Origin: Candidatus Saccharimonadota bacterium | GTDB lineage: Bacteria; Patescibacteriota; Saccharimonadia; Saccharimonadales; Saccharimonadaceae | Direction of reading: 5' to 3' | NCBI GenBank assembly: GCA_009785325.1 | Contig: WQWN01000001.1 | Location: 62,001 to 126,000 of the forward strand | DNA: 64,000 bases | In this document: one piece after another, positions 40,011-42,426 of the stretch | How the letters are laid out: each line of letters starts with the position of its first letter | Numbering within the stretch: position 1 is the first letter of the stretch | The notes under the pieces: generated by a model | Seen by the model: only the letters and a program-made list of their open reading frames with translations | What the model was told of the DNA's origin: nothing | Databases searched by the model: none | Made by a program: the position numbers and the translations under genes

Positions 40011-40439
40011 TTAATTAGTAAAAGGGATAGCTGGCGGGTTGTGGTGTTGGAGTTTTTTAATCAGCTCTATGTCGGTCGAAATAAACCTATCGTTATAACT
40101 GGTCAATATGTCAAGAAGACGACCAGGAAGCATGATTTGCGTCTGCAGGAGAGACAATGTTTCTTTTATAATCCTCCTGTCGCAGTCCAGCCGTTCTGCT
40201 ATGACATCTGCCTCCATTGTCTTATCTTTTTCACTGTAATACATCATGACGATGCGTATTTTGAGCTGTCTTGATGCGTTTTCCGTTTCGGTGAACTTAG
40301 CTTGCTCTTTCTTCGTGCCGAGAATCATCCTTGAGATGATACGGAGCACTTGAGAATGGAAGTTTGGAATTACAGACTTGTCGGGCATCCTTCCAGAATA
40401 GCCAACTGTTTTGTTTAGAAATCCTTGCAAATTGTTCAT
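40011..40439 (-). CDS. Uncharacterised 142-aa protein, possible winged-helix/HTH segment (solitary cassette)
   Basis: SD GGAGG; promoter TTGACA-17-TATACT; segment ADVIAERLDCDRRIIKETLSLLQ is HTH-like. Confidence 0.72.
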   Translation of the reverse strand: MNNLQGFLNKTVGYSGRMPDKSVIPNFHSQVLRIISRMILGTKKEQAKFTETENASRQLKIRIVMMYYSEKDKTMEADVIAERLDCDRRIIKETLSLLQTQIMLPGRLLDILTSYNDRFISTDIELIKKLQHHNPPAIPFTN

Positions 40440-40593: not shown

Positions 40594-41145
40594 ATGAAGA
40601 TTATTTTTGCGCTAGGAAATCCAGGAACTCAATATAGTATGACGAGGCATAATGCGGGGTTTTTTGCGGTGGATCTATATGCGAAAATACGGGAACTGGA
40701 ATGGAAAGAAAAGCCGAAGTGGAAGGCGGTGGTTGCGGAGCTTGACTCTGAGGGGGAGAAAGTGATCTTCGTGAAACCACAGACTTTTTATAACCTGGTA
40801 GGGGAGAGTCTGGTGGCGGTGATGGGGTTTTATAAAGCGGACATCGAGGACCTGCTGGTGGTTTGTGATGATCTAAATTTACCCTTTGGGGTGGTGCGAG
40901 CGCGGATGAGCGGAGGTGATGGTGGGAGTAATGGTTTACGTAGCGTAGTAGCGCAGATCGGGACGGAGTTTAAGCGGGTGAAAATCGGAACAGATGGAGA
41001 GATGCGAAAGCGAATGAGTGACGCAGATTATGTGTTGGCGAGATTTAGCGAAGAGGAGAAGGCAGAGCTGGGAGGGGTTTTGATGAAGGTGGGTGGGATG
41101 ATTGATGATTTTATCATTGGGGAGTTTGAGGCGAAGAGCGATTAG
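40594..41145 (+). CDS. pth: Peptidyl-tRNA hydrolase
   Basis: FALGNPGTQYSMTRHNAGFFAVD, FVKPQTFYNLVGESL, SGGDGGSNGLRSV. Confidence 0.95.
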   Translation: MKIIFALGNPGTQYSMTRHNAGFFAVDLYAKIRELEWKEKPKWKAVVAELDSEGEKVIFVKPQTFYNLVGESLVAVMGFYKADIEDLLVVCDDLNLPFGVVRARMSGGDGGSNGLRSVVAQIGTEFKRVKIGTDGEMRKRMSDADYVLARFSEEEKAELGGVLMKVGGMIDDFIIGEFEAKSD

Positions 41146-41198: not shown

Positions 41199-41514
41199 TA
41201 AAAAGAGCCTAAGTAAGGGTGGGCATCACTTAGGCTCATTTTAGCCTTCAACACACCACACGAGAGGCTCTGAGCGAACTCAGAAGCATGACCCACCTCA
41301 CACTTTTCGCGAGGGTCTGCCGGTTAAAGGCGTTAGTACACATACTACGATGGTCCAAGAGTGGAGGTAAGTACTCAAGGGCGTACTATGTGCATAACTT
41401 AAAAAGTTATAATCTAGTAGCGCTTTTGACCCACGAGGGGCTTTTTGCAACTATTAGATGTTATAATTTTTAGGTACCGTTTAGTGAATTTGGCGATGCC
41501 GAACTCACTAACTC
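41199..41514 (-). ncRNA. Predicted stand-alone structured non-coding RNA, ~316 nt, family unknown
   Basis: Perfect promoter 41521-41549, perfect-stem terminator 41205-41237 with U5, at least five stem-loops between, no ORF of 60 aa or longer in the supplied track on this strand. Confidence 0.75.
41205..41237 (-). terminator. Intrinsic terminator of the predicted ncRNA
   Basis: Minus GAGCCTAAGT-gatgcccaccctt-ACTTAGGCTC-TTTTTA (10-bp perfect stem). Confidence 0.88.
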
Positions 41515-41520
41515 ACGGGC

Positions 41521-41549
41521 ATTATAGCATGTGTATGGATATATGTCAA
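41521..41549 (-). promoter_or_regulatory. Perfect sigma70 promoter TTGACA-17-TATAAT
   Basis: Minus TTGACA tatatccatacacatgc TATAAT. Confidence 0.9.
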
Positions 41550-41565
41550 CACTTTTCTAATAAAA

Positions 41566-42426
41566 ATGAGTAAAATCAATAAAATACTACCCCGAGAGAG
41601 TGAATTTACATCAGTGATAGGTTCTATTGCGCATATGCCTACTAAGTTGTATTATCGCGGAGTTTTACCCGAAAAACGAGTAAAAAGTGTAGCGATCGTA
41701 GGGACACGAAAGCCGACGGCATACGGACAAGAGTTTGCGTATAAACTAGCGAGAGAACTAGCAGAGAAGGGGGTGGTGGTAGTGAGTGGACTAGCGCTAG
41801 GGATTGATGCAGTGGCGCACCGCGGAGCATTGGACGCAGGCGGAGTGACGGTGGCAGTGCTAGGAAGTGGAATTGATGACATAACGCCAAGAACGAATAA
41901 GAGACTAGGGGAGAGGATTTTAGATGAGGGCGGGGCGATTTTGAGTGAGTATGAACCGGGTCACCCTGCGATGCCGGGGCAGTTTCTCGCGAGAAATCGG
42001 ATCGTGAGTGGACTGAGTGATGCGGTGATCGTGATCGAGGCAGCAAAGCGGAGTGGAACACTGGCGACGGCGAGCTATGGGCTAAATCAAGGGAAGAGTG
42101 TGTTTGCGCTGCCGGGGAGAGTGAGTGACGCGATGAGTGCGGGGTGTTTGGCGCTTTTGAAGCAAGGAGCGACGCCTGTGGCGTGTGTGGAGGATGTTTT
42201 GGAAGTGATTGCGCCAGAGAAACTGGAACAGGTGACTCTAGGGTTTGATGGGGATAGCGAAGTAGAGCGGAAAATCGTGAAGATGATCCGAAGCGGTGTG
42301 AATGACGGAGAAGTGATCGCGGCGGGAGCAGGAGTGAGTGTAGGAGAATTTAATCAGGCGGTGACGATGATGGAATTAAAAGGAACGATTCGGGCACTAG
42401 GGGCGAATCGGTGGATGTTGAGGTAA
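41566..42426 (+). CDS. dprA: DNA-processing protein DprA
   Basis: VAIVGTRKPTAYGQEFAYKLARELAEKGVVVVSGLALGIDAVAHRGAL, FLARNRIVSGLSDAVIVIEA, FALPGRV. Confidence 0.95.
   Translation: MSKINKILPRESEFTSVIGSIAHMPTKLYYRGVLPEKRVKSVAIVGTRKPTAYGQEFAYKLARELAEKGVVVVSGLALGIDAVAHRGALDAGGVTVAVLGSGIDDITPRTNKRLGERILDEGGAILSEYEPGHPAMPGQFLARNRIVSGLSDAVIVIEAAKRSGTLATASYGLNQGKSVFALPGRVSDAMSAGCLALLKQGATPVACVEDVLEVIAPEKLEQVTLGFDGDSEVERKIVKMIRSGVNDGEVIAAGAGVSVGEFNQAVTMMELKGTIRALGANRWMLR

Follow-up and report, generated by a model that had tools for sequence, protein, structure and literature searches.

The locus between pth and dprA

The minus strand of the analysed 64,000-nucleotide stretch of DNA, referred to here as the window, carries an RNA gene between pth and dprA, and the sequence reveals both a promoter and an intrinsic terminator of its own. 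The features of the locus are listed below.

41200..41514, minus strand: the RNA itself, approximately 315 nt, with a predicted start 7 nt past the −10 box and its end in the U-run
41521..41549, minus strand: promoter, with the −35 box TTGACA at 41549-41544, a 17-nt spacer and TATAAT at 41526-41521
41200..41237, minus strand: intrinsic terminator, a hairpin (41237-41205) with a 12-bp stem and the 9-nt loop UGCCCACCC (41225-41217), followed by U5
40594..41145, plus strand: pth, the convergent neighbour (Pfam PF01195, 2e-49)
41566..42426, plus strand: dprA, the divergent neighbour (Pfam PF02481, 1e-70)

An earlier note on this DNA had described the promoter TTGACA-17-TATAAT at 41549-41521, and it is located exactly there. 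In addition, the −10 box is of the extended type (TGcTATAAT, 41529-41521, with the TG at 41529-41528), and from these elements the promoter is predicted to be a near-perfect extended σ70-type promoter. The terminator stem and U5 of the same note are likewise present, and no ORF of at least 60 aa overlaps the RNA gene on the minus strand, in agreement with its reading; on the plus strand, an ORF of 61 aa overlaps the gene. The dprA start codon is separated from the −35 box of the RNA gene by 17 nt, and the divergent dprA promoter must therefore either overlap the RNA promoter or sit within the RNA gene (window 41521-41566). According to Pfam, topA is located in the window beyond the dprA and pth flanks. 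An ORF of 142 aa beside pth (40011-40439, minus strand) is without any Pfam match.

In Rfam searches at gathering thresholds, three tRNAs were the only matches across the 64-kb window, and the RNA gene was matched by no family, neither in the window nor in 12 relatives at E≤0.5. At permissive thresholds the RNA region returned only snoRNA and miRNA noise, none of it credible. By every membership test that was run, the RNA belongs to no described family, and no description of it was found in open-access papers.

Distribution and genomic context of the homologues

A blastn search with the 371-nt region gave matches in 18 of the family's 24 other genera, the majority of them to the 3′ part, and none in 16 genomes from other families of the order. 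From 14 of these matched relatives the 3′ domain was aligned (alignment A2) and converted into the covariance model R1; a second alignment, consisting of 59 central-arm sequences from which the window copy was excluded (A3), yielded the model R2. R1 matched 340 of the 397 genomes of the order, or 286 of 320 when good assemblies were considered, nearly always as a single copy. Since R2 added another 28 genomes, the RNA was detected by one or the other model in about 368 of the 397 genomes, as counted from both match lists, which is far beyond chance. In a phylum-wide sample of 294 genomes (22 in the order and 272 outside), the R1 matches were confined to members of the order: at the sensitivity of the models and with strict filters, R1 had no match in the 272 other Patescibacteria, and R2 none in approximately 358 Patescibacteria genomes outside the order. 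Although R2 was built without the window copy, it recovered this copy at 41423-41326 (E=9e-5), immediately upstream of the R1 match at 41338-41200. This detection is an independent test of the central domain. A pattern scan of named genomes led almost exclusively to Candidatus Saccharibacteria/Saccharimonadia, and R1 confirmed 72 of the 80 listed loci. Phage-borne copies were considered and rejected: none of five IMG/VR pattern matches had a model match, and in the two contigs that were inspected the pattern falls inside the same DNA polymerase gene.

The homologues have a median length of 315.5 nt (n=120). In this set of 120, which was chosen for TTGA, CTCCA and the terminator loop, TTGAC was present in 118 members, the 17-nt spacer in 110 and the TGn element in 114. 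A promoter score that was free of this selection reached a best match of at least 10 of 12 positions of the σ70 consensus, within the region where a promoter is expected, in 89 of 118 homologues, as compared to 22 of 400 random regions. The genes downstream of the 120 distinct loci differ in kind and strand, the one in the window being a convergent neighbour, and the RNA is thus a stand-alone unit.

Fold, covariation and C-rich loops

The structural elements of the window copy, all on the minus strand, are as follows.

41481..41511, minus strand: P1, the 5′ hairpin, UUAGUGAGUU/AAUUCACUAA, assigned from sequence and fold
41472..41477, minus strand: conserved single-stranded GYACCU motif (GUACCU in the window), whose G, A, C and U show no variation in A3
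41394..41410, minus strand: P2, UAAC (41409-41406) with GUUA (41398-41395), in competition with the base of P3
41332..41398, minus strand: P3 domain, GUUA (41398-41395) with UAAC (41335-41332), then CACAUAGUACG/CGUAGUAUGUG, assigned from the R2 match and covariation
41360..41377, minus strand: P3 apical loop, closed by GAGU/ACUC and containing ACCUCCAC, a motif of anti-Shine-Dalgarno type
41244..41331, minus strand: P4, closing the 3′ domain, GCCUUUAAC (41331-41323) with GUUGAAGGC (41252-41244)
41286..41320, minus strand: P5, GCA/UGC and GACCC/GGGUC, with GGUGGG (41297-41292), which may form a pseudoknot with the terminator loop
41269..41284, minus strand: P6 hairpin, UCUGAG-UUCG-CUCAGA, assigned from sequence and fold, variable among relatives

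The predicted folding energy of the 316-nt strand was −109.1 kcal/mol, compared to −76.9 ± 4.5 kcal/mol for dinucleotide shuffles (z=−7.2), and none of 100 shuffles was as stable. Within the 3′ domain, 14 of 29 pairs showed change on both sides, and the number of doubly changed cells was 39 versus 11.0 ± 2.8 after shuffling; 94% of the cells were paired, as opposed to 33-52% when the partner strand was slid. The central arm showed both-sided change at 13 of its 17 pairs, with 195 doubly changed cells versus 45 ± 7 in shuffles and a covariation score of 0.547 versus at most 0.15 with the partner slid. The structures were drawn manually, in part with the help of the same sequences, so that the slid control alone is generous, and the argument therefore rests on the shuffle control and on exchanges at single pairs. 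P4, for example, was paired in 100% of the cells of 14 sequences and had four pairs with two-sided change (exchanges C-G/G-C, A-U/C-G/G-C and A-U/U-A), the window copy having G-C for C-G. At pair 21-54 of P5, G-C is replaced by A-U in three sequences from as many genera, the window copy among them. Judged from these alignments, the overall fold is shown by covariation; it comprises the 5′ hairpin, P3 as a long central arm with the anti-Shine-Dalgarno-like loop at its tip, and a 3′ domain capable of forming a pseudoknot.

The stems named in the earlier note are all legible in the sequence. Of its stem at 41317-41290, the segments GCA/UGC and GACCC/GGGUC are backed by covariation and the remainder is without such support. 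The position of P1 holds a hairpin in homologues as well, albeit with a differing sequence. The notion of a stand-alone, highly structured RNA of unknown family is borne out by the Rfam results and by compensatory changes, which are strong in both of the domains that were aligned independently. The domain enclosed by P4 is swapped for a larger, multi-branched one in L008, L014, L015, L016, L066, L074, L090 and others, where it has motifs of its own (GACUAUC..CAGUAG..CAGGCGC and GAYGCUUCRCU). This replacement in many lineages means that the RNA has at least two 3′-domain architectures. In other families, GUUUUAGAGC resembles a Cas9 repeat; this likeness was rejected as coincidence, since the segment is paired inside the arm.

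The element AUAACUU-uuu-AAGUUAU, listed in the earlier note, is more than a plain hairpin, because its 3′ strand can also pair with ACUAAC at 41337-41332. In more general terms, the conserved GUUAG strand (GUUA 41398-41395 in the window) has an upstream partner CUAAC, forming P2, and a downstream partner CUAAY, forming the base of P3, and both partners were found in 95 of 108 scorable homologues. In the ensemble, these mutually exclusive pairings had mean probabilities of 0.38 (P2) and 0.48 (base of P3). The P3 base is backed by covariation within A3 (GUUGG/CCAAU in L043) and by GUUGC/GCAAY, read by eye in one subgroup, and the P2 partner is absent or separate in some lineages. An exchange between the P2 and P3 folds is plausible, though not proven.

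Two C-rich loops are conserved and predicted to be mostly unpaired, namely UACCCUCCAC, which is like the anti-Shine-Dalgarno tail of 16S rRNA, and the terminator loop UGCCCACCC, which is conserved while its stem covaries. In the homologue set chosen for CTCCA and the terminator loop, the predicted mean unpaired probability was 0.89 for CCUCC and 0.84 for GCCCACCC, compared to 0.36 for the whole RNA. CCTCC was present in 59 of 60 R1-detected loci, whose detection did not involve the central arm, versus 10% of shuffles; the 60th locus has CCTCC outside the scored stretch. A third C-rich segment, the ACCCCC strand, is missing in some members (L087, L131). Upstream of the terminator loop, a complementary GGTGGG or GGGTGG occurred in 67 of 67 copies versus 13% of shuffles, which suggests a pseudoknot between GGGUGG and this loop. 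The C-rich loops being invariant, covariation cannot separate this intramolecular pairing from pairing in trans.

Within the 64-kb window, complements of the CCUCC loop occurred at chance level (8 versus 6.5 ± 2.7). Shine-Dalgarno sequences are sparse there, with GGAGG preceding 4 of 52 starts, and this weakens an anti-Shine-Dalgarno role. In 13 of 51 window genes with an ATG start, a box resembling a −10 element was located at most 22 nt from the start codon, as compared to 4 and 2 at control positions, which suggests that mRNAs that are leaderless or have a very short leader are common in the window. A complementarity of UUGUUAC to the decoding region of 16S rRNA was set aside, since the family of the window does not conserve it.

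Possible modes of action and comparison with known RNAs

It is virtually certain that a new RNA family, single-copy and non-coding, exists at this locus. The explanation that we favour as a whole, an order-confined RNA family with the described fold that acts in trans through its C-rich segments and switches between P2 and P3, has a probability of about 0.42. The RNA would be transcribed from its own extended σ70-type promoter and end at its own terminator, as suggested by these two elements and by the covariation. It would then act in trans as a structured scaffold via the exposed CCUCCAC loop, the ACCCCC strand and the UGCCCACCC loop. The 16S rRNA tail has the sequence ACCUCC, which the P3 loop resembles, and the C-rich segments may find pairing partners in G-rich RNA (Shine-Dalgarno regions, for instance) or bind a protein associated with translation. 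Movement of the GUUAG strand between its P2 and P3 pairings could set the activity. Taken separately, this mode of action with its switch is a tentative proposal, and an RNP scaffold is almost as probable.

In that alternative, which we view with only slightly more reserve, the RNA is the housekeeping scaffold of a lineage-specific protein complex and its loops are protein-binding sites rather than pairing seeds. Near universality as a single copy in very small genomes and sequence conservation beyond pairing, as in the invariant terminator loop, would agree with such a role, but a candidate protein partner is lacking and the exposed C-rich loops fit base pairing too. A bolder version of the favoured trans-acting RNA, doubtful in our estimate, is a new RNA or RNP class, universal in the order and conceivably essential, whose origin would coincide with that of the Saccharimonadales; it would bear a mimic of the 16S rRNA 3′ tail and, by toggling between two folds, tune translation in the epibiont cells.

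That the RNA is a functional stand-in for 6S RNA or SRP RNA is improbable. Neither was detected in the order: no 6S RNA above the Rfam cut-off was found in 41 genomes, SRP RNA (RF00169 and RF01854, small or large) was unmatched in 25 genomes, and the SRP54 M domain was absent from the same 25 (G000-G015 and G025-G033) in a search that was positive in 14 of 14 controls. The order thus seems to be without a recognisable SRP. However, the RNA shows neither a 6S-like central bubble nor an SRP domain IV motif, and a 4.5S-like RNA would be partnerless without an M-domain protein. Lack of SRP has also been published for Parcubacteria (PMC4508563), yet the RNA was not found beyond the order; SRP loss is therefore not peculiar to the order that bears the RNA, and from this loss alone it does not follow that the RNA is a substitute. 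A weak 6S-like match of 32 bits, below the cut-off, was located in a different family of the order at G026:C51:16563-16716, approximately 400 bases from the RNase P RNA gene on the same contig.

Still less probable is that the RNA acts in cis, as a leader or an attenuator, or that it is a regulator linked to dprA and competence. The nearest upstream gene is a divergent dprA at 89 of the 120 loci, only 17 nt from the promoter in the window, and the bistable pairing is attenuator-like. Against this stand the strong terminator and the varied or convergent downstream genes; a riboswitch or attenuator leader was rejected, as no co-directional downstream gene is conserved. Moreover, the RNA is retained at 12 loci where topA and not dprA is adjacent, which disfavours a strictly DprA-bound role. 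Finally, a non-transcribed repeat, a palindromic element or chance stem-loops, with which strong folding of a single sequence would by itself be compatible, can be dismissed: the genomes have a single copy each, promoter and terminator are conserved, and the covariation exceeds the two controls by far.

Saccharibacteria are very small epibionts of other bacteria, and their genomes, including those of oral strains, are among the smallest of cultured bacteria. Nearly all of these minimal genomes retain this single RNA gene, and few unannotated RNAs proven by covariation reach such a size and universality. The RNA may reveal that translation or another core process is controlled through RNA in a way specific to the lineage. 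It lies within ready reach of the natural transformation and Tn-seq tools of Saccharibacteria (PMC10633639).

Several known RNAs invite comparison. Class A RNase P RNA (RF00010) is likewise a structured housekeeping RNA of similar size and single copy, and tmRNA (RF00023) is alike in size, pseudoknot potential and single copy. Neither model matched the RNA, and both RNAs are encoded at other loci in relatives (class A rnpB in 23 of 25, tmRNA above the cut-off in 22 of 25 genomes), and the RNA is neither of them, in keeping with the earlier note, which saw no hallmarks of either. 6S RNA (RF00013) is also stand-alone, order-wide and of a regulatory type, and its central bubble mimics an open promoter. 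Its model did not match, the consensus of the new RNA being multi-branched with an apical loop and not a long hairpin with a central bubble. Trans-acting sRNAs may have C-rich seed loops, such as the RsaE-type UCCC motifs of Firmicutes. The new RNA shares with RsaE-type sRNAs the exposed C-rich loops complementary to Shine-Dalgarno-like sequence, and like trans-acting sRNAs in general it has its own promoter and terminator and an exposed, conserved candidate seed, but its size is far greater, its structure is extensive, and it occurs as a single copy throughout the order. OLE, raiA, GOLLD and HEARO are large structured bacterial RNAs whose functions are unknown or partly known. Although the new RNA has no Rfam match to any of these families and comes from another phylum and context, it is likewise long, supported by covariation and restricted to a lineage.
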